The position numbers and the translations under genes are program-made. Of a stretch of DNA of 58,233 nt, positions 17,110 through 56,345 are shown in pieces (the first letter of the stretch is position 1; every line of letters begins with the position of its first letter). The notes beneath the pieces are model-generated. The model was not told where the DNA came from and did not search any database. It was given only the letters and a program-made list of their open reading frames with translations. Source of the DNA: a virus; the IMG/VR virus record IMGVR_UViG_3300010883_010460, positions 1 to 58,233 of that record, one strand, 5' to 3'.

Positions 17110-18309
17110 TTAGAGGTCGAGACCTTCGAGGATGCTGGGCTCTTCTTCCTCTTCAACCTCCAAAGCCTGGGACGACTCCTTCATTGAAGCTGACAACCGA
17201 GGCTCGACCTGATTGAAAATCTCGGTGAACGAACCCTCTCGGTCACTGAGCATCTTACGGAAGCCACTCATCCCCTGGCCCTTGACGAGGGTCCCGTCAC
17301 TGGCAGTCCATGAGTACCAAGCGCCGCCCTTCTTGACGATGTTGTAGGCGATGGCGATCTCAATGATCGTGCGTTCGTCATCAATGCCATAGTCACTCTT
17401 GAGATAGAAGTCCTGCTCGTGGCCAAAGGCACCGGAGACCTTGCACTTGTCGAGCTTGGCTCGAACCTTCGTGCCCGTGATCTGCTCGGTGCCCTTACCA
17501 GTAAGGTGGTTGAACACCTTCTCCTTCTCCTTGGAATAGACGCGCAGGCCCATCCGGGTACAGGAGTAGAACGTCCACGCCTTGCCGCCCTGAGCGTGTT
17601 GAGAGGGTCCCATAGAACGTCCGGTGCTGATCTTCGACCGGAGCTGTGAGATCCCCAGTATGGCAGTATTCGAACGCTTGGTAACCACCTTCAACTGAGG
17701 AAGGAACTTACTCCACATCGACGCAACCAGACCCACCCGACCTTGCTCACCCTTCTCCGAAGACTTGAACCAAACCTCCGGTACACCAGCGCCCACAGAG
17801 TCAACCACGATAAGGTCAACCCCAGACTTGGCCATCGCGAACATGATGTTGAAGCCTTCTTCAAGCGTGGAGGGCTGGAGCAGAACGAACTTGCTGGGGT
17901 CAGTGACAGGGACCCCCAGGATCTCAGCGTACCGAGGCTCCACTTCATTCTCGAAGTCGATGTAGGCGACGGTTCCGCCCAAAGCGCAAGTGCTGGCTGA
18001 GGCGGTGAGGGCCAAGGTGGTCTTCCCAGCACCGGGCTCACCATACAGATTCATGATCTTGCCACGAGGGATACCAGGACACGGCCTTACGCCGTAGTGG
18101 TTCGGGATGCCGCCAATGAGATAGTCAATCACCAGACTCCCGGTAGGGATATGAGGTGCCGCCTCCCTGAGAGTCTTCGTGTCCAGATGGGCAACAATGT
18201 CGTCCATCGGCAACGCCTTCTTCAAGCCCGCCATAGCGACATCGAGCTTGCTGTTGGACTTCGTGGCCTTCTTCGTGGCCTTCGTGGTCGTGGTCTTCTT
18301 AGCTGCCAT
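17110..18309 (-). CDS. recA: RecA-family recombinase
   Basis: 399 residues. A basic Lys/Thr-rich N-terminus precedes the ATPase core: Walker A GEPGAGKT (90-97), AYIDFENE, Walker B LIVVDSV, an ILGISQLRSK strand with loop region, and GGKAWTFYS. The C-terminus is acidic (EEEEEP). The core order matches RecA/UvsX. It would catalyse strand exchange in recombination-dependent replication and repair alongside the SSB candidate, RuvC-like and SbcCD-like proteins. Its stop lies just before promoter motif P3. Confidence 0.92.
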   Translation of the reverse strand: MAAKKTTTTKATKKATKSNSKLDVAMAGLKKALPMDDIVAHLDTKTLREAAPHIPTGSLVIDYLIGGIPNHYGVRPCPGIPRGKIMNLYGEPGAGKTTLALTASASTCALGGTVAYIDFENEVEPRYAEILGVPVTDPSKFVLLQPSTLEEGFNIMFAMAKSGVDLIVVDSVGAGVPEVWFKSSEKGEQGRVGLVASMWSKFLPQLKVVTKRSNTAILGISQLRSKISTGRSMGPSQHAQGGKAWTFYSCTRMGLRVYSKEKEKVFNHLTGKGTEQITGTKVRAKLDKCKVSGAFGHEQDFYLKSDYGIDDERTIIEIAIAYNIVKKGGAWYSWTASDGTLVKGQGMSGFRKMLSDREGSFTEIFNQVEPRLSASMKESSQALEVEEEEEPSILEGLDL

Positions 18310-18964
18310 TGGTCTCTCCCTGCTGAAGCTCTGACCACCGAAAGAACCTCTCGGACTCCCTAAACAGGATGCCCCTCCGCTCTGTCCGTCCGGCCTTCTT
18401 GCCTCGTTGATAAGTATGGATTGTCATGAACTGCTTCTTCTCTGGAACCGTGAGGTCTTCCTCGTCAATCAGCCCCTCGTAAAGCCGCCAGAAGCGAGCC
18501 GACACCCGAGCCACCAAGTAGGCATCCGCCTCGTTGTGGTTCCAGCGCCCTCCGCCTCCTGTGTCAGCCTTGGCCGCGTCACACATATCGGCCTTCCGCA
18601 TCTTCCACCCCTTGGGGCGCTCAGCGATCAAGCGGGCGTGAACCTTGACCTGCATCGGAGAGAAGAACACAACGTCTGCGCCTTCCAACCTCAGGGCCTC
18701 GCAGGAGTACAGGAACAGCCCGTACATCCCCTCTGACCAAAGGTCATTGAACACCGGATACTCAATGCCGATCCGGTCAGGCTTGTGTGTTTGAATCAGG
18801 TCGCGAAGGCTGTCACGCATGTGGACATATCGGTCGATGAAGACCTGCTTGGAGGGTGTTTGGAAGCGGCCCCTCGCAGGGCAACGACCCTTCCCAACAA
18901 ACTCATCATCATGCAGAGCCCAACCGAAGTTGGTCAGACTCGGGTCCAGTCCAAGTACAAGCAA
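18299..18964 (-). CDS. RuvC-like Holliday junction resolvase
   Basis: 221 residues from a TTG at 18964, preceded by GAGGGGG. This start places the catalytic Asp at residue 7, as in RuvC; the frame continues up to a TTG at 19021 with no ribosome site. Visible residues are GLDPSLTNFGWA, GIEYPVF and HNEADAYLV, giving the Asp, Glu and Asp of the RNase H-fold site. A basic C-terminal tail follows. It overlaps recA by 11 bp. It would resolve branched DNA before packaging. Confidence 0.82.
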   Translation of the reverse strand: MLVLGLDPSLTNFGWALHDDEFVGKGRCPARGRFQTPSKQVFIDRYVHMRDSLRDLIQTHKPDRIGIEYPVFNDLWSEGMYGLFLYSCEALRLEGADVVFFSPMQVKVHARLIAERPKGWKMRKADMCDAAKADTGGGGRWNHNEADAYLVARVSARFWRLYEGLIDEEDLTVPEKKQFMTIHTYQRGKKAGRTERRGILFRESERFFRWSELQQGETNGS

Positions 18965-19021
18965 GAGAGCCCCCTCGACGACACGAGTCAGCGAGGCCAA
19001 TGACCTCGCTGACTCAGTCAA

Positions 19022-44139: not shown

Positions 44140-45120
44140 GTGAATCAACCTGTTGGCATTCTGTATGCAACCGCCGGAGGGCGATACCCTTTTATGGCGG
44201 GTGTAGCGGACGCCTTGGAAGCCCACCTTGCAACCCTCGGATACAGCGTCGCCTTTAGAATCGGAGCCTCAGGTGGTTCGATTGTGGCTTCCATGAAAGC
44301 CAGCGGAGTCAACTTCCTCGACTGGCTCTCCGAAGCCGCAACCCCCACGAACATGAAGGCTGTGAAGATTGGCGGCACGAGGTCCCTACACAACATCAAG
44401 ACCTACATCCAGGGGCGAGGCTTCATCGACTCTAACGACCTTGTCGATCTCCTCCAGCGAACGCTTCCAGACTCCCCGAACATCCAACCCTGCTACTCGG
44501 TCTCCTGGTGCGTGTCCTCTGAGCAGCCTGTCGTCTTCCGACTAACCCCGGAGAACAGAGCGAGTCGCGTCGCAGCGAGCTGTGCTCTTCCGGTTGGGTT
44601 GACCTCGGTGAAGATCCGCAATGGAGACCTGGAGTCTCGCATCCAGAGGCAGCTCAAACTCGAAGAGGACCCGGACGGGTTCTCGGCCTTCCGGGACGGA
44701 GGTCTGTGTCCTGGGTTCCCACTCGACCTGGTCGAGGGCATCAAGCACATCCCAGTAGTGGTGGTAACCATCGACATTCGGGATCCTGGCACCAAGGAGA
44801 AGCCGATCTCGATCTTCCAGTCGCTCCTGGCACGCCAGGTCCGCGTCAAGATCCTCGACAACCTCAACGAGATTCGTAGCCGGAGGTCTCTCTCCGTGCT
44901 GTGCGTCCCAGCCCCCTCGTACATCAACTCAAAGTTCTCGGCCCGGTTCGACATCACGGAAGCTGAGGGGCGCAGCATGTACGACACAGGGCACACGTTG
45001 GCGAGAACCCACCTCTTCCTCCACCCCATCTACCTGCCCATCGCAGTGGAGGTCCCAACACCGGAGCCCATCGCAGTGGAGGTCCCTGCCGAAGCAGGCA
45101 GTGAACAGTGCGTGCAATAG
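44140..45120 (+). CDS. patatin-like phospholipase
   Basis: 326 residues with a GTG start after GAGG. The catalytic dyad is present: Ser44 in GASGG and Asp186 in DGG; the oxyanion motif is ATAGGRYPF at 10-18. The C-terminus carries a short repeated unit PIAVEVP. Patatins release fatty acids from phospholipids. The fatty-acid hydroxylase-like gene overlaps its stop, so the two may act on the same lipids, for example to remodel or permeabilise the host membrane. Confidence 0.87.
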   Translation: MNQPVGILYATAGGRYPFMAGVADALEAHLATLGYSVAFRIGASGGSIVASMKASGVNFLDWLSEAATPTNMKAVKIGGTRSLHNIKTYIQGRGFIDSNDLVDLLQRTLPDSPNIQPCYSVSWCVSSEQPVVFRLTPENRASRVAASCALPVGLTSVKIRNGDLESRIQRQLKLEEDPDGFSAFRDGGLCPGFPLDLVEGIKHIPVVVVTIDIRDPGTKEKPISIFQSLLARQVRVKILDNLNEIRSRRSLSVLCVPAPSYINSKFSARFDITEAEGRSMYDTGHTLARTHLFLHPIYLPIAVEVPTPEPIAVEVPAEAGSEQCVQ

Positions 45121-45704
45121 CACTGATCTTGGGCTCTTGGCTCTTGGCCGAGTTCTATGGGTACTGGCTCCACGTCCTCCTCCACAGTGACCGCTGGCGG
45201 TGGCTCTCCCAACGCCACATGAACCATCACCTGTTGAGCTACCATCCCGGTGGGGGGATGCGGTCAGACACCTACGTCCAGGAGACCGGAGACCACCTCC
45301 TCATCGCCGGACTGGGTGCGGAGTGGTTCGCTCCGGCTGCGGGCCTGATTGCATTGACCGCGTTGGGCGAGTGGGCCATCGGTCTCACCTGGCTGGAGAT
45401 CCTCGCGTCGGAAGCCATGCTCCTCTCGTACTCCATCTTCCTGTTCTGGTACTTACATGACCGGATGCACCTCAAGGACATCTGGCTTCTTCGGAACCCG
45501 CTACTCAGGAAGTGGTTCCTCAAGACCCGGAGGAACCACGACGTACACCACCATCACATCACCGATGACGGCCTGATGCAGAAGAACTTCGGCATCGCCT
45601 TCCCACTCTTCGACCACGTCTTCAGGACCTATCAGCCCCGGCTGGAAATACTGAACAGACGGGGTATTGAAGCCGCTTACGACCGCTACGACATCCCTCG
45701 CTGA
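45108..45704 (+). CDS. fatty acid hydroxylase/sterol desaturase superfamily protein
   Basis: 198 residues, GTG start at 45108 overlapping the patatin gene end. The four His clusters of the family are visible: HVLLH (22-26), HMNHH (37-41), HDRMH (117-121) and HDVHHHH (144-150), with hydrophobic helices between. Such proteins are di-iron membrane enzymes that hydroxylate or desaturate lipid chains. Finding one in a phage is rare. No promoter motif lies between this gene and patatin. Confidence 0.83.
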   Translation: MRAIALILGSWLLAEFYGYWLHVLLHSDRWRWLSQRHMNHHLLSYHPGGGMRSDTYVQETGDHLLIAGLGAEWFAPAAGLIALTALGEWAIGLTWLEILASEAMLLSYSIFLFWYLHDRMHLKDIWLLRNPLLRKWFLKTRRNHDVHHHHITDDGLMQKNFGIAFPLFDHVFRTYQPRLEILNRRGIEAAYDRYDIPR

Positions 45705-45723
45705 GAACTTTCTTGAGAGCAGG

Positions 45724-45752
45724 GGGTGCGCTTTTCGACCCCCACCCGTAGA
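45724..45752 (+). promoter_or_regulatory. phage promoter motif P18 (large non-coding RNA)
   Basis: GGGTGCG, then CCGTAGA after 22 bp, immediately before the large RNA. GGGGGT/ACCCCC pairs across the spacer. Confidence 0.75.
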
Positions 45753-45801
45753 GGGGATAGAAGCGAGTTGCTCTTTCAAAACACGATTTGATTTACTGGA
45801 T

Positions 45802-45944
45802 GGTTCGGGTTCGACCCCCGGCAGCGTACATTTTGGGTGCGCTGAGAGTTGGAACACCGAAGGTGATATGACAACAGAGTGGGAACAGGGTTCGGGTTCG
45901 ACCCCCGGCAAGTCCGTCACCAAGGGCTTGAGAGTTGGAACACC
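45802..45944 (+). repeat. tandem repeat inside the large RNA
   Basis: Two units about 87 bp apart. Each has GGTTCGGGTTCGACCCCC (from 45802 and 45889), which folds as a tRNA T-arm-like hairpin, and then TGAGAGTTGGAACACC (45843-45858 and 45929-45944). The segment between them differs. Confidence 0.8.
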
Positions 45945-46640
45945 CCCCACACTGAAACCAGACGCTCTTTCATATTCCAGTTTGCGACCCCCGGTGCTTG
46001 CACTGAGGGAAGCGGATGACCCTGCTGTCGGGTCACAAAACCTTCGTACCCCTGCCGGGTCGTCGGCCTCCTTCGGGAGGATAGCCAGAACCCCGATTGG
46101 GAAGGTGGTCTTCGCAGGCCATGCCGCCCAATCTGTGAGGGGGGATGAGTTATGCGGCGTGGAAACCGCGAGAATCATCCAGTGTCCCAGCGCGTGAGCC
46201 GACATTCCACTGTCGGAGTGCTGCAAAGGGAAGTCCCGTACTTGCTGATTCAACGGGGCAACGGTTGCAGGGCATAACCAAAACGAAAGTCTTGGGAAGT
46301 GGCGTCGGTCACAGAATCGGACTGCTGGGTGCAGAAGCCTCTCTGGTCATTGGAGCAATCTGGTGATCGTCCCGAAAGGGGGTAGCAGGAGTTCTTCCCA
46401 AGAGAACGAATGTTGCCGTGTGGAGGAAGGGAGAAGTGTACAGCTTACCCTCCGATACACAGAATGCAGGTCAGCAGTATCGCGTGCTGTTCCGTCCTTG
46501 GAAACAGGGAAGAACAGGGAGGAACGCCGTGAACAGTCTTACTGGCTGGTGTTCACACTCCTAACCCGCAAGGGGACAGGCTCAAAAGGCTTGGAGGTCA
46601 CGGTTGGAGGCAAGCCAATGTGTGCTTGTTTGTCTCTTCT

Positions 46641-46680
46641 GGGCGGGTCATCCCTAAAGGGTGGCCCGCCCTCTTTTTTT
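46641..46680 (+). terminator. rho-independent terminator of the large RNA
   Basis: GGGCGGG at 46641-46647 pairs with CCCGCCC at 46665-46671, with an inner CCCT-AAA-GGG hairpin, followed by T at seven consecutive positions. It is the strongest terminator in the window. Confidence 0.92.
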
Positions 46681-46690
46681 GGGCTGAGGT

Positions 46691-46766
46691 TGGCTGGGGC
46701 GACAAGACTCGAACTTGTATCTCCGGGGTAACAACCCGGCAGGTTGCCAGTTGACCCTACACCCCA
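46691..46766 (-). tRNA. tRNA-Asn (GTT)
   Basis: 76 nt read on the minus strand with encoded CCA. Acceptor stem TGGGGTG pairs with CGCCCCA (one T-G pair), discriminator G. The anticodon arm is CCGGG-TTGTTAC-CCCGG, anticodon GTT, which reads AAC/AAU. The T-arm is ACAAG-TTCGAGT-CTTGT and the D-stem GGGT/ACCT. It lies 11 bp past the RNA terminator on the opposite strand, and would be transcribed after the 72-residue gene. Confidence 0.93.
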
Positions 46767-46861: not shown

Positions 46862-47080
46862 TTACTTGTTCGTAGAGACGAACTTGTTCAGCTTCGCAGC
46901 CGTCTCGATCACCTCATCGGTGGTGAAGAACGACTTGCGGTCCTTTGCCTTGTCCTCACGCGCCATGTGCGCGTTCTGCTCAAGGATCTCCTTGGCCAGA
47001 TGGAGAAGGTCGAACCTCATCTCGTAGGGGTTACGCGCTTCATTGGTGACGGTCATGCCGTCGGGGGTTTGAGAAGCCAT
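46862..47080 (-). CDS. small conserved phage protein
   Basis: 72 residues with AAGGAGGA before the ATG. The NPYEMRFDLLHLAKEILEQN segment resembles short helical proteins common in T4-like and cyanophages, of unknown function. It precedes tRNA-Asn in the same direction. A TATAAT at 47149-47154 (minus strand) may be a host-type promoter -10 for both; no good -35 is seen. Confidence 0.72.
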   Translation of the reverse strand: MASQTPDGMTVTNEARNPYEMRFDLLHLAKEILEQNAHMAREDKAKDRKSFFTTDEVIETAAKLNKFVSTNK

Positions 47081-48605: not shown

Positions 48606-48941
48606 ATGTATTGGGTTTACGTCGTAGAGAGCAGGGGTCAGAGGTTCCGCACGAGCGGGGTCGGCGGGCCTTTCTACGTCGGCCTGTCAAGGAACCCCAC
48701 CCTTAGTTTGATGGAGCACAACGGAGAGGTCCCTGGCAACCAGAGCTTCTTCATCGCTCTGCGCCCTTGGGAGCCTCGGGCTCTCTATGGACCCTTTCCC
48801 TCTCAGGCCGAGGCCGAGGCCGCCACTGAAGAGATCAAGAAGCTCAAGCGTCAAGCAAGGGCTCACTGGCGGGCTGGCAAGGGCGTGGGTGCTGACCACC
48901 CCTGGGTCTTCAATCCTTTGATGAAGCTCGGCGGGGTTTAG
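48606..48941 (+). CDS. GIY-YIG domain protein, possibly inactive
   Basis: 111 residues. YWVYVVES and FYVGLS mark the two halves of the GIY-YIG motif, followed by MEHN. The helix between (NPTLSLMEHN) lacks the Arg that its neighbour has (DPARRLNEHN), so catalysis is doubtful. It shares YWVYV, RPWE, RAL-GP and HPWV with the 134-residue protein encoded on the opposite strand, with which its 3' end overlaps by 32 bp. They are diverged duplicates. Confidence 0.8.
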   Translation: MYWVYVVESRGQRFRTSGVGGPFYVGLSRNPTLSLMEHNGEVPGNQSFFIALRPWEPRALYGPFPSQAEAEAATEEIKKLKRQARAHWRAGKGVGADHPWVFNPLMKLGGV

Positions 48942-49314
48942 GCGGTGGCTCCCAACCATAGGGGTCTTTTACCCACGGGTGCTCCGGTCCAGCGCCTCGA
49001 CACATAGGGCTGTCCTTCGCTGACCACTTCAGGCGACCCTCCCCACGCTTCTGGCGCTTGAGCTTGTACTCAGCTTTGAGTGCCTCTCCACGGTTGTCGT
49101 AGGGTCCGTGCAGAGCACGAGCCTCCCACGGCCTGAGCTTGGAGGTGTACTTGCCTCCGCCCTTCTTGTGGCCGTTGTGCTCGTTGAGCCGCCTCGCCGG
49201 GTCCGTGGTCATGCCCACATAGAAGAACCCAGGAAGCGGGTCCCCCTTGTCGTTGAATCGGGGCTTCAGGCTCTGGATCACATAGACCCAATAGTATCGT
49301 TTTGAGGCTGCCAT
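48910..49314 (-). CDS. GIY-YIG endonuclease-like protein
   Basis: 134 residues from the ATG at 49314 (GGAGAG upstream). Core motif: YYWVYVIQS, FFYVGMT, Arg in DPARRLNEHN and a Glu in a following helix (EALKAEYKLKRQKR), as in UvrC-type GIY-YIG nucleases. The C-terminus is Pro-rich. Compact single-domain members occur in phages as free-standing endonucleases or homing-type genes. It is convergent with its paralogue. Confidence 0.83.
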   Translation of the reverse strand: MAASKRYYWVYVIQSLKPRFNDKGDPLPGFFYVGMTTDPARRLNEHNGHKKGGGKYTSKLRPWEARALHGPYDNRGEALKAEYKLKRQKRGEGRLKWSAKDSPMCRGAGPEHPWVKDPYGWEPPPKPRRASSKD

Positions 49315-49496
49315 CAACTCTCCAGGAACCCCACTCTCACGCCCGTGGGGAGGGCCAAAACTAAACCCAAGAAATCACTCTTTTTGCCTGTTTTGTAAGC
49401 TGTTGAAATCATTGAGGTTTTTGGGGCCTAAAATAAGTTCGAGGAAAACTGTCAGAAAACAGCTCCTGGATCCGGTGGCCTGGCGCGGTTCACACG
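49315..49496. other. AT-rich intergenic block
   Basis: 180 bp with a marked drop in GC at about 49360-49460 and a short CTGT/ACAG hairpin followed by TTTT on the minus strand (about 49449-49462), a weak terminator candidate for the membrane protein gene. No gene seen. Confidence 0.4.
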
Positions 49497-51743: not shown

Positions 51744-54092
51744 CTAATCTTCAAGGGCGTGAGAGAGGACCTCCTCAAGGGTTTTCACGAAGATGATCTC
51801 AAGCTCTGCCTTCACCACGTCAGGCACATCCGGTAGGTCTTTTCGGTTCCTCTCGGGCAGCAGTACCGTCTTGATCCCTGCTCGGTGAGCCGCCATCGTC
51901 TTCTCTTTCACGCCACCGATAGGGAGCACCGTCCCCCGCAAACAGGTCTCTCCGGTCATCGCCAGGTCACAGCGGACCTTCTTGTCCAGTAGACAGGACA
52001 GGATGGCTGTGACGATGGCTGCTCCGGCGGAAGGCCCATCCTTTGGAACTGCCCCTGATGGGAAGTGAACGTGGATGTCGTTCTCCTTGAAGAACTCTTT
52101 GTCGATGTCGAAGTCAGGTGCCAGTGCTCGGACCACAGTGGCGGCGACCTGAACGGACTCCTTCATCACGTCTCCAAGACGGCCTGTGATCTTGACCTTG
52201 CCCTCTCCAGGAACCTTGGTGGCTTCGACGAAAAGGACATCTCCTCCTGCCGCCGTCCACGCCAGTCCACACACCACGCCAGGTCGAGGCTCCTGCTCAG
52301 CAAGGTCATTGAAGAACTTGATGGGTCCACGGATGTCTTCGATACGGACGGGGTCCATGAGCTGTTTCGAGGAGAAGTTCTCAGTGGCTACATCACGAGC
52401 GACACGACGGAAAAGTGCGCCTACCTCTCGTTGCAATCCACGAACACCTGCTTCACGAGTGTAGCTCTCAACCAGGAACCGGAGCCCGTCATCAGGAACC
52501 ACAACGTGGTCGTGGGTGATGCCGTGTTCTTCAAGCTGCTTTGGAATGATGAACTCACGGGCGATGTGGAGCTTGTCCTCCATCGTGTAGCCTCCGAGTT
52601 CGATAATCTCCATGCGGTCTTGTAGGGGTGTGGGGATCGTGTTGGTGGTGTTTGCTGTTGCGATGAACAGCACCTTCGACAGGTCGAAGGCAACGTCGAG
52701 GTAGTGGTCCTCGAACTTGTCGTTCTGTTCAGGGTCCAGGACCTCCAGAAGCGCAGACGAAGGGTCCCCGCGATGGTCCATGCCCAGCTTGTCGATCTCA
52801 TCGAGGACGATGACGGGGTTGTTGGTGCCGCCCTTCTTGATCCCCTTGATGAACCGTCCAGGGAGAGCGCCGATGTAGGTTCGGCGATGGCCCCGAATGT
52901 CGGCCTCATCACGCACGCCACCCAAGGCAATGCGAACGAGCTTCCGACCCAAGGCATCTGCAACGCTCTGGGCCAACGAAGTCTTACCTACGCCAGGAGG
53001 TCCGACCAGGCAGAGGATAGGCCCCTTCATGTCGTCCTTGAGCTTGCGAACGGCGAGGTACTCCAGGATCCGGTCCTTGACCTTCTCCAGGCCGTAGTGG
53101 TCCTCCTCGAACCGCTGGGCCACATTCTCGATGTCGAGGTTGTCTTCGGAAGATGTGTCCCACGGGAGGTCGATGAGCCAGTCGATGTAAGTTCGACTCA
53201 CGGTCCACTCACTGGACTGAGGGTTCATCTTGTTCAGACGCCGCAGCTCCTTCATGGCCTCCTTCTGGATGTCCTCAGGCATCTTTGCGGACATGACCCT
53301 TTCCTTGAGGGTCAAGAAGTCATCGGGGTCTTCGTCTTCGTCTCCGTCGCCCAACTCCTTGCGGATCGCCTTGAGCTGTTCACGCAGGAAGTATTCACGG
53401 TGGTTCTTCTCGATCTCGCCCTTGGTCTCCGACTCGATCTTGACCGAGAGTTCCAGAGAGGTCAGTTCCCGTTCGAGGAACGAACTCACCAGTGCGATGC
53501 GAGACTCCGCATCAAAGGCTTCGAGTACAGCCTGCTTCTCCAGCGTCTGAAGAGGGAGGTTGGTGGTGATTACATCCGCCAGAACTGCGGGGTTGTTGAT
53601 GGCCCGAATCAGGAAGTCTGCTTCCTGGGGGACGCCGGGGTTCAGGTGGATGAGCTTGTGGGTGAGCCGTTTGAGGTTCTTGGTCTCTTCAACCAAGACA
53701 TCTCCAAGATCATCCGGGTCACTAAACACATCGACATTGGCCGTCAGACAAGGCTCCGTAGTGAGCCACTCGGTTGCCATGATCCGAGAGATACCCTGGA
53801 TGATGACATGGAACTTGTTCTCTGTACGAGCAACGACTTTGATGACCCGGACCAGGGTGCCAACTTGATGGAGGCCCTGCCTCGGATCCGGGCTGTCTGC
53901 TCTGGAGTCCTTCTGGGTGAAAATGCCCAGTAGGAAGTTGTTACCCTGCGCTGCTTCAAGGGCCTTGAGTGAACGCGGCCTACCGACGTTGATGGGTGTC
54001 GCGAGTGTCGGGAACACAACGGTGTTCCTGATCGCCAGCACTGGGACCTCCATTGAGGAAGGCAGTTCATTCTTCTGGGTGTCGTCGCTCAT
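51744..54092 (-). CDS. lon: Lon protease
   Basis: 782 residues, full length. It has the N-terminal substrate-binding domain (1-210), a coiled region, an AAA+ module with Walker A GPPGVGKT near residue 367, and a C-terminal Ser-Lys protease with PSAG (Ser near 687) and a Lys near 729 within the [10 protein letters not shown] segment. Lon degrades misfolded or regulatory proteins. A phage copy could remove host factors. AGGAG precedes the ATG; a variant promoter element lies at 54144-54158. Confidence 0.95.
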
Positions 54093-54143
54093 GCAGCGTC
54101 TCTCCTACGTTGGGCAAAACCTCTCCCTACATAGAAGTGGGTG

Positions 54144-54158
54144 CTATAAACAGAGTAC
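54144..54158 (-). promoter_or_regulatory. variant promoter-like element of lon
   Basis: GTACTCTGTTTATAG on the minus strand, 14 of 15 bases shared with the element before the lipoprotein operon. CCGTACT lies in it, but no GGGTGCG is found at 21-22 bp. Confidence 0.42.
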
Positions 54159-54174
54159 GGAGGGACGAAGAACG

Positions 54175-54193
54175 GCCCCTCCGTCAGAGGGGC
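54175..54193 (-). terminator. weak terminator-like hairpin
   Basis: GCCCCTC-N5-GAGGGGC, followed on the minus strand by CGTTCTTCG, which has too few T for a strong terminator. It could separate the chaperonin operon from the lon promoter. Confidence 0.4.
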
Positions 54194-54266
54194 GGTAACT
54201 CTTGTCACTTTTCTTTGATGCGTGAATATGAACAAACCCCAGCCCCTGCGAGTCCGCGCTGAGCAC

Positions 54267-54284
54267 TGAGGTTGACTAACCTCA
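54267..54284. other. inverted repeat in the leader of lon
   Basis: TGAGGTT-GACT-AACCTCA, a 7-bp perfect inverted repeat between the 111-residue gene and lon. No T run follows; it may be an operator or an RNA hairpin. Confidence 0.4.
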
Positions 54285-54313
54285 CTCGCTATGGAGTTCG
54301 GAGGATAGGAAGC

Positions 54314-54649
54314 CTACCGCTTTCCCCCTGGGATGACCGTGAAGATGCCCTTGACTGAGTGGGATAGAGGCTCAGACTCCGATTCCGTTTCGCCGAAGGT
54401 GCCGTTCCATTCGGAGATGTGTCGGCCATGTTCTTGGGGTGCGCGACCTTGGAATACATCAGCCTGGTTGTCATCAGCCTGGTTTTGACGCTCATTTTCA
54501 GCGAGCTTCTGACTCTGGAGAATCAGATGGTTCCCAGCGAGCTTGCAGCCTGTGCCTACGGCCCACCAGATGAAAGCCCATTTGATGATAAACCAAAGGA
54601 CTGAGCCGATGATGGCGAGAGCGCCGAGTATGATCCAAAATGTTTCCAT
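54314..54649 (-). CDS. membrane protein
   Basis: 111 residues with GGAG before the ATG. One or two hydrophobic helices within residues 5-38 (ILGALAIIGSVLWFIIKWAF and following) precede a polar tail rich in Gln, Asp and Glu. Function unknown. It has its own promoter motif (P20), which lies inside the end of the chaperonin gene. Confidence 0.65.
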   Translation of the reverse strand: METFWIILGALAIIGSVLWFIIKWAFIWWAVGTGCKLAGNHLILQSQKLAENERQNQADDNQADVFQGRAPQEHGRHISEWNGTFGETESESEPLSHSVKGIFTVIPGGKR

Positions 54650-54664
54650 GTGTCTCCTACCCTT

Positions 54665-54693
54665 TATACGGGTGAGCCATCAGGAGCGCACCC
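54665..54693 (-). promoter_or_regulatory. phage promoter motif P20 (membrane protein)
   Basis: GGGTGCG, then CCGTATA after 22 bp, overlapping the last codons of the GroEL-like gene and 16 bp before the ATG at 54649. Confidence 0.72.
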
Positions 54694-56269
54694 CCACCAA
54701 GGCGGCCTCCGCTGTCAGTAGGGTTCCAGCCACAGAAATGGCGGCGGATGTTGCACTTATAGCCATCCGAGTGGGGTCTATCAGGGTCGGGGAGTCCATG
54801 AGGTTTCGGGTCTCTTGCGCGACAGGGTCCCAGCCTTCAAAATCCCACAGGTCTACCGCTTCAGTGTGTAGCTCGGCAACTGCGCCGTGAACGTCCCCTT
54901 TCTCTGCCAGAACCTTGAAGGGGGCCTTGAGAGCCTCTGCTACGATCTCCCACCCCTTTCTGCCGTTAGCATCCATAGCCACGATCTGGCCCGCTACCAG
55001 CAAACCATTTCCGGCCCCTGGGACCACACCGTCTTCTATGGCCCCCCTAACAGCCCCCAGGGCGTCTTCGATCCTCCCCCGACGTTCCTTCATAGCGCCC
55101 TCCGTGACCCCACCAACCCGTAGGATTACAAGCCCTCCATCCAAAGCGGCTCTGTTCTCTGAGTATCGGTCGCGGTCGTAATCGGAGGTCGAGCCCTCCA
55201 ACAAGGCTGTCAGCTCTTGGACTCGTTCAGTGATGCCTTCTCCGGCTTCGTCAAAGGACTCAAGCACCGTCTTCTTGGAGGTAACAACAGCCTTCTTTAC
55301 GGAGCCAAACCACTCTGCGTTGAAGGACCCCTGGAAGGTCATCCCAGCGGCTTCATCTACGATGGTGGCCCCGGAGATGGCGGCGATGTCCTTCATGTAC
55401 TCCAGTTTCCAGTTGTGCATACCAGGGACGTTCACGGCGCAGCTTTGGACCACACCCTTCTTGTGATTCATCACCATTGTGACCTTGGCCTGTCCCTCGA
55501 CATAGGGGCTGAACAACAACAGGTGATTGTTGGGCCATTGTGAGGCTTCTTCGAGGATAGCCTGAACGTCCTCGACCCGTTCGAGGCCCTTGTTGATGAT
55601 AGCGACGAGAGGCGAGTCGATTACCCGTTCGAGGCCATCCGAAGCGAAGCTGTCCGAGACGAACCCGCTCTGAATCTCCAGGCCCTCCTTCGTTTCAATC
55701 TCGATCCCTGTTGAAACCCCGTCTTCCACGGATACGGTGCCGTTGGACCCCGCAGCCATACAGCCTTTAGCAAGGGCTGCTGCAACCTCTTCATCCCCAT
55801 TGGAAGCAATGAAGGCCACCCGTCTTACCATGTCCTCAGAAGTCACTGGGCGGGATAGCTCCCTTAGAATCGCAAGGGCGCAGTCCCTCGCTTCGTCCAT
55901 CTCCCGCTTCAACTCGACTGGGCAGAAGCCAGCGGCGACCATCTTGTTTCCAAGCTGGAGGGCTCGAAAGGCCATGATTGCCGTGGTCGTCGTACCATCC
56001 CCGGCCTCCTCTTCGACTTTCAGACAAGCCTCACGAACCATGTGTGCTCCGAGGGAGGCCAGCGTCCCTGCCCCTGGTTGCACCTCGCGGGCCACCGTAA
56101 CACCATCGGAGGTCGCAGCGATATTCCCGAAGGCTTTCTCCAAGAGGACGAGCCCACCCTGGGGACCGAAGGTCGCACCGATGGCCCTTGCCGCAAGCTC
56201 AGCACCCGCAGCCATCCCTTGTCGGGCGGCAGCCCCGAACACTATGTGGACAGGATTCTTCTTTTCCAT
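54680..56269 (-). CDS. GroEL-like chaperonin (Hsp60)
   Basis: 529 residues from the ATG at 56269 (AAGGAG upstream); a GTG at 56296 is an alternative. Group I chaperonin features: DGVTVAREV, ATP-binding GDGTTTT (90-96), and IEDALGAVRGAIEDGVVPGAGNG where the catalytic Asp of the GroEL VEDAL segment sits. Some phages carry such chaperonins that act without a co-chaperonin. No GroES gene is seen in this window. It probably folds virion or replication proteins. Confidence 0.92.
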   Translation of the reverse strand: MEKKNPVHIVFGAAARQGMAAGAELAARAIGATFGPQGGLVLLEKAFGNIAATSDGVTVAREVQPGAGTLASLGAHMVREACLKVEEEAGDGTTTTAIMAFRALQLGNKMVAAGFCPVELKREMDEARDCALAILRELSRPVTSEDMVRRVAFIASNGDEEVAAALAKGCMAAGSNGTVSVEDGVSTGIEIETKEGLEIQSGFVSDSFASDGLERVIDSPLVAIINKGLERVEDVQAILEEASQWPNNHLLLFSPYVEGQAKVTMVMNHKKGVVQSCAVNVPGMHNWKLEYMKDIAAISGATIVDEAAGMTFQGSFNAEWFGSVKKAVVTSKKTVLESFDEAGEGITERVQELTALLEGSTSDYDRDRYSENRAALDGGLVILRVGGVTEGAMKERRGRIEDALGAVRGAIEDGVVPGAGNGLLVAGQIVAMDANGRKGWEIVAEALKAPFKVLAEKGDVHGAVAELHTEAVDLWDFEGWDPVAQETRNLMDSPTLIDPTRMAISATSAAISVAGTLLTAEAALVGVRS

Positions 56270-56345
56270 TGCCTGGTGCTCCTTGCTGTGACCCACTTAC
56301 AGTACCCATCGGGTAGAGTAAACGGTCGCAAATGAGGAGTGGTCC

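Follow-up and report, generated by a model that had tools for sequence, protein, structure and literature searches.

The window analysed here, the whole 58,233-bp stretch of phage DNA that makes up record IMGVR_UViG_3300010883_010460, contains at 45752-46680 (+) a unit made of a promoter motif, about 920 nt without coding capacity and a terminator-like hairpin. That this unit specifies a structured RNA is close to certain. Our preferred explanation, held with moderate confidence when the mechanism discussed below is included, is an independent phage unit for a large structured non-coding RNA of a new class, ~720-920 nt long and carried by some related jumbo-type phages. A sequence-only reading of the window had left open whether the RNA is a divergent GOLLD or ROOL or a new class of ornate RNA: the latter is now strongly supported by three full-length homologues, by doubly compensated base pairs and by the lack of a convincing Rfam match. 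To our knowledge, very few RNAs of comparable size and structural complexity have been described, and the phage-borne ones, GOLLD and ROOL, are cages of unknown purpose.

Full-length homologues in three uncultured phages

Blastn searches found no homologue of the RNA in the named/public phage collection or in plasmids, and none was retrieved with a T-arm pattern, among RNR-related contigs or with the Lon-like protein. The lineage of the window was identified via its replication block, where synteny with contigs of 60-536 kb extends over a RuvC-like protein (18302-19021, -) and the genes beside it. Alignment of the RuvC-like protein gave 80 loci, and a search of those records with the DNA sequence of the RNA returned one match, G057 (IMGVR_UViG_3300025141_000016, 297,104 bp), with 84% identity over window positions 46020-46667 (E = 1e-196). 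Patterns made from the blocks invariant between the window RNA and G057 retrieved G112 (IMGVR_UViG_3300007513_000007, 180,576 bp; 84% identity over 46018-46684) and G113 (IMGVR_UViG_3300007760_000001, 152,523 bp; 86% identity over 45991-46676); L139, a match of the first such pattern, was rejected as a chance coding match. All three homologues are full-length and come from uncultured phages in IMG/VR, and the RNA core is single-copy in each of the four genomes.

Two patterns found no RNA member in a collection of genome contigs, covariance models R1 and R2 recovered no member beyond the known ones from the related records searched (of which several are hundreds of kb long), and R2 gave no credible further member in 48 related records. 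Most of the related phage contigs searched are without the RNA, suggesting that, as far as fragments allow, it is dispensable in the lineage. Judged from these records, its distribution is patchy, most of them being fragments and exact-pattern scans missing divergent members.

Covariation reveals a structured, non-coding RNA

The + strand of the window unit folds better than dinucleotide shuffles (z = -5.1, versus -0.9 for the - strand), and in all four phages z lies between -4.7 and -6.6 on the + strand and between -1.4 and -2.8 on the - strand. From an alignment of the four sequences (A6), RNAalifold gave a consensus of 206 pairs in 32 helices, in which 98.5% of the 822 cells form standard pairs. 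A search of related phages for covarying stems, as the sequence-only reading had proposed, thus found them: pairing is kept through changes on both sides at 43 of the 206 pairs, in 20 helices, a count that is somewhat flattering (four sequences, a structure predicted on those sequences, and a program that rewards covariation) but stands apart from the controls by a very large gap. Slid-partner controls gave 1-7 doubly changed pairs with 40-48% of cells paired; shuffle controls gave 19.9 +/- 2.9 on average, and none of 500 reached 43. The picture was the same in a three-sequence alignment (39 doubly changed pairs).

The strand is fixed by the 127 G-U pairs among the 822 paired cells, which the opposite strand would turn into mismatches (83% paired). 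Protein coding is excluded: any two homologues are separated by 5-9 indels of lengths not divisible by three, and the three codon positions carry substitutions about equally (e.g. 42/42/45). The proposal of ~920 nt without coding capacity was right, in its coordinates as well.

Evidence for a separate unit behind a recurrent promoter-like element

The motif upstream of the RNA, taken in the sequence-only reading for a phage promoter, is real and recurrent: its exact bipartite form occurs three times in the window (0.00 expected), its strict form five times (0.1 in Markov shuffles), and a looser form (GGGGGTGCG[C/T]..N..CCGTAGA, or GTATA) in about ten places, mostly directly 5' of ORFs (Table 1). 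Judged by sequence motifs, these ORFs comprise scattered small ones, a metallophosphoesterase-like one and a DnaQ-like one. The suggestion that the RNA shares control with replication genes is only loosely true, and no copy of the element was seen before the main replication block at 4-27 kb of the window. The element reads GGGGGTTCC..CCGTAGA in G112 (~12 sites; strict form seven times, 0.1 expected) and GGGGGCT..TCGGTAGA in G113 (~3 sites), and in the window phage, G112 and G113 one copy lies directly 5' of the RNA, each in the dialect of its own phage; upstream of the G057 RNA there is weak likeness only (GGGGGGTCAAC..GAGTAAG). Promoter and core lie ~270 nt apart in the window, ~125 nt in G112, ~95 nt in G113 and ~70 nt in G057. 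These promoter-like elements, as sequence patterns, make a good case that the RNA forms a unit of its own, served by a promoter class that recurs across the phage.

At the 3' end, the hairpin at 46641-46671 (13 pairs, 10 of them G-C, followed by TCTTTTTTT) is by scan the strongest terminator-like site of the window, as had been claimed, the runner-up having 12 pairs. A good U tract is absent at three of the four terminal hairpins (G057, G112 and G113); in G057 a second terminator-like hairpin lies just 3' of the terminal one. The RNA had also been placed beside a tRNA gene: a tRNA-Asn gene does adjoin it in the window, on the opposite strand, and none is adjacent in the other phages, the nearest being ~2.9 kb away in G113 and ~27 kb in G112, while G057 is without tRNA.

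No neighbour gene is constant across the four loci. SWIM-like zinc-finger ORFs (L135:433-801 and G112:51653-52123 (-), assigned from sequence) lie upstream of the RNA in G057 and G112; no such ORF was seen next to the RNA in G113 or the window. Several other features of the window deserve mention in their own right. A 72-aa ORF adjoining the tRNA (46862-47080, -) has 77% nucleotide identity in G112 and 73% in G057, above most other genes. Adjacent patatin-like phospholipase and fatty-acid-hydroxylase-family genes (44140-45704, Pfam matches) are unusual phage lipid genes. Two convergent, overlapping and mutually similar ORFs with GIY-YIG-like N-termini (48606-48941, +; 48910-49317, -) both match one G057 ORF. 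Finally, a Lon-like ATPase lies near a phage GroEL chaperonin (51744-56296, -), and the fragment putatively derives from a jumbo phage.

Table 1. Features of the RNA unit and its surroundings, in window coordinates
Feature	Position	Strand	Description
Promoter-like element sites	28703(-), 29405(-), 30008, 32537, 33558, 33923, 35368, 38952, 45722, 54695(-)		bipartite GGGGGTGCG..CCGTAGA/GTATA
Promoter motif	45722-45752	+	GGGGGTGCGCTTTTCGACCCCCACCCGTAGA; transcription would start at ~45758
Variable 5' domain	45760-45990	+	~230 nt; absent from the other three phages; homology starts at 45991-46020
GCTCTTTCA copy 1	45770-45778	+	within the 19-nt direct repeat D2
T-arm-like module 1	45802-45858	+	UCGGG/CCCGG stem, UUCGACC loop, second hairpin, then UGAGAGUUGGAACACC; repeats D1, D3
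T-arm-like module 2	45889-45944	+	~87 nt downstream of module 1; D1, D3 identical
GCTCTTTCA copy 2	45964-45972	+	candidate pairing with GGGAGGAAC at 46517-46525 (helix 1: 96.9% of cells paired, no covariation)
Conserved structured core	45991-46680	+	~690 nt, 81-86% nucleotide identity; most of the 32 predicted helices; covariation
5' subdomain of core	46088-46276	+	helices 7-14; covarying hairpins 46143-46180 and 46199-46216, stem 46233-46259
Hairpin loop GUGG	46159-46162	+	invariant; 4-6 bp complementarity to loop UUCCAC 46205-46210
Strand CUUGGGA	46291-46297	+	complementary to the entire 7-nt loop UCCCAAG 46396-46402; identical in four phages
CCC-GAAA-GGG tetraloop hairpin	46371-46380	+	invariant; helix 20
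Hairpin GUUCU/AGAAC, loop UCCCAAG	46391-46407	+	helix 22; stem covaries (U-A to A-U)
Terminal hairpin and U tract (terminator)	46641-46680	+	helix 32; hairpin conserved, covarying; U tract strong in the window phage alone
tRNA-Asn(GUU) gene	46691-46766	-	convergent with the RNA; neighbour not conserved

The core is shared, the 5' domain is not

The proposed extent of the RNA (45760-46680) stands for the unit; its conserved part, by comparison, is the 3' ~690 nt, the first 230 nt being specific to the window phage. UUCG and GAAA loops are present in the core (46067-46080 and 46371-46380). Two candidate contacts emerge there from complementarity in the sequence. The strand CUUGGGA and the loop of helix 22 may form a pseudoknot or an intermolecular kissing contact, both segments being invariant and thus free of covariation, and the loop GUGG at 46159-46162 could kiss CCAC at 46207-46210, likewise with no covariation. 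A systematic search found no further complementarity of at least 5 bp between unpaired segments conserved in all four phages. Helix 15 of the consensus is unsupported (85.7% paired, no covariation), and its strand may instead leave CUUGGGA free for the loop at 46396-46402.

The variable domain contains a 22-nt and a 16-nt repeat, each in two copies 86-87 nt apart within the first 230 nt. As read from its pairing, the 22-mer holds an exact tRNA T-arm (UCGGG-UUCGACC-CCCGG), and in the two resulting modules the inner (second) hairpin differs in sequence with its pairing kept. Neither ARAGORN nor the tRNA model found a tRNA at these modules, and the tandem modules were found in no relative. This T-arm domain, flanked by the GCTCTTTCA copies at 45770 and 45964, accounts for the extra promoter-to-core length in the window; the other three phages have a single TTCTTTTACA in place of GCTCTTTCA.

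The RNA is more conserved than the proteins

The RNA core is 81-86% identical at the nucleotide level among the four phages, orthologous proteins of which average ~38-52% identity. At the DNA level, the best gene matches between the window and the others are mostly at ~67-73%, with short pieces up to 77-79%, versus 84-86% for the RNA. As the RNA is far more constant than the phage proteins, it very probably has an important, undescribed role.

The relationships among the RNAs do not follow those of the proteins: G057 and G112 are clearly the closest pair by proteins (47-52%), yet at 82% their RNAs do not stand out as closer than those of other pairs, and the G113 and G112 RNAs are 85.6% identical. 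Together with a block-wise mosaic of identity, this suggests that the RNA gene has recombined or been exchanged as well as being under strong constraint, two influences that cannot be separated with four sequences. Elsewhere in the genomes, a 359-nt segment is 97.5% identical between G057 (291995-292353) and G112 (89618-89976), phages with proteins ~50% identical, pointing to a recent transfer; DNA exchange between these phages thus occurs.

Discussion

We propose that, during lytic growth, the phage's own class of promoters would drive the RNA, which would act in trans as a folded object, not as an antisense regulator or a leader. The loop-strand and loop-loop contacts might then build a compact, possibly homo-oligomeric particle, by analogy with GOLLD and ROOL. 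It is tempting to speculate that such a particle displays or encloses the variable 5' domain, which in the window consists of two tRNA T-arm mimics, and that it serves infection by holding or sequestering something of the host or phage, perhaps part of the translation machinery. A self-assembling structural role is our best guess. A bolder version, which we put forward tentatively as an idea still well short of probable, is an independently evolved RNA-only homo-oligomer of jumbo phages, i.e. a further nanocage class besides GOLLD and ROOL, with a swappable 5' cargo domain carrying T-arm mimics, exchanged by recombination while the proteins diverged to ~40-50%.

The main competitor, somewhat unlikely in our view, is a ribonucleoprotein RNA or ribozyme: the core would bind a dedicated phage or host protein, or be catalytic, with no RNA-only assembly. 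Most large structured RNAs work with proteins, and extended purine-rich segments without variation, e.g. GAACAGGGAGGAAC and CUUGGAGGUCAC, could be binding sites. A constant neighbour gene is missing at the four loci, however, and the RNA does not resemble RNase P, tmRNA, a group I or II intron or any other catalytic RNA of Rfam; the group-II-D1D4-1 model (RF01998), run directly, gave no match at the RNA.

Less likely still is a decoy directed at ribosomes or tRNAs, in which invariant SD-like and anti-SD-like segments (GGAGG, CACUCCUAA) and the T-arm mimics would engage ribosomes or tRNA enzymes. The segments GGGAGGAACG, UUGGAGGUCAC and CACACUCCUAACCC are (nearly) invariant in the four phages, the 5' domain has two exact T-arm modules, and GOLLD was reported to bind ribosomes in pull-downs (PMC12286853). 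Against this, GGAG and CUCC may just be partners in a helix within the RNA (helix 26 of the three-sequence alignment), and the T-arm modules are confined to the window phage.

A divergent GOLLD or ROOL missed by the Rfam models is improbable. GOLLD is a 14-mer RNA nanocage near which tRNA genes or islands are frequent, though not obligatory, and a tRNA neighbourhood is a common setting of both GOLLD and ROOL. Length, phage location and the constant 3'/variable 5' organisation are indeed similar, and a tRNA gene is adjacent in the window phage alone. Yet GOLLD (RF02032) gave no match at E<=10 in the four genomes, nor at E<=5, its control genomes giving no more than sub-threshold matches, and ROOL (RF03087) gave none at E<=10 in the same genomes, in a search of unproven sensitivity, as its control matched nowhere; a cmscan of the loci with the full library was also silent at permissive thresholds. 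Since neither model matches and the tRNA setting is not conserved, the RNA should not be filed as GOLLD or ROOL. More broadly, the covariance-model search advised in the sequence-only reading (Rfam, 4227 families, including OLE) gave no convincing match, either for the whole window at the gathering threshold or for the RNA loci at permissive E; for 45760-46680 at E<=10, matches were limited to the neighbouring tRNA and chance terminator-like ones. A match of BjrC68 to two 3' hairpins, in G112 alone (24 bits, 39 needed), was dismissed as terminator-like similarity.

That the stretch acts as DNA (a replication origin or packaging site) or as a mobile element, its RNA fold being incidental, would fit conservation far above that of genes, the patchy distribution and the departure of RNA from protein closeness (suggesting recombination or transfer), but is very improbable given one copy per genome and the RNA signatures of compensatory changes with G-U on one strand, a promoter element 5' and a hairpin 3'.

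Comparison with known systems

The preferred reading, a large non-coding RNA of a new class, can be set beside four systems. The bacterial OLE RNA, a dimer in cryo-EM (PMC12286853), is likewise large and ornate; it differs in not being known as a phage RNA of this kind, and Rfam is silent here. Also comparable are the abundant ~800-nt transcript of vibriophage ICP1 (PMC7567579) and the lncRNAs of phage K (PMC9241854): both phages are lytic, and these large transcripts are orf-less and of unknown role. Blastn of the public phage collection found no homologue of the new RNA among them. ROOL is a phage-encoded ornate RNA of ~600-700 nt, in its own unit and without a known protein partner, and is set apart by a model that gives no match.

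GOLLD differs through its silent Rfam model and in that the new RNA is not tied to tRNA genes. It is alike in being a large non-coding phage RNA that varies more towards its 5' end: its 3' region is conserved, its 5' region less so and able to hold tRNA material, and examples come from marine metagenomes (PMC12286853). A hairpin loop and a joining strand form the intermolecular bridge in GOLLD (L20-J13/15) and in ROOL (L8-J6/8) (PMC12286853), and loop-to-joining-strand complementarity recurs in the new RNA, here as a sequence prediction. By this analogy, the new RNA may work like GOLLD and ROOL. If a class unrelated to these two shares their plan of a fixed core and a changeable 5' domain, phages would seem to have resorted repeatedly to giant structural RNAs as a strategy, and four divergent sequences with one architecture would offer a clean comparative system for asking about the function of such RNAs.
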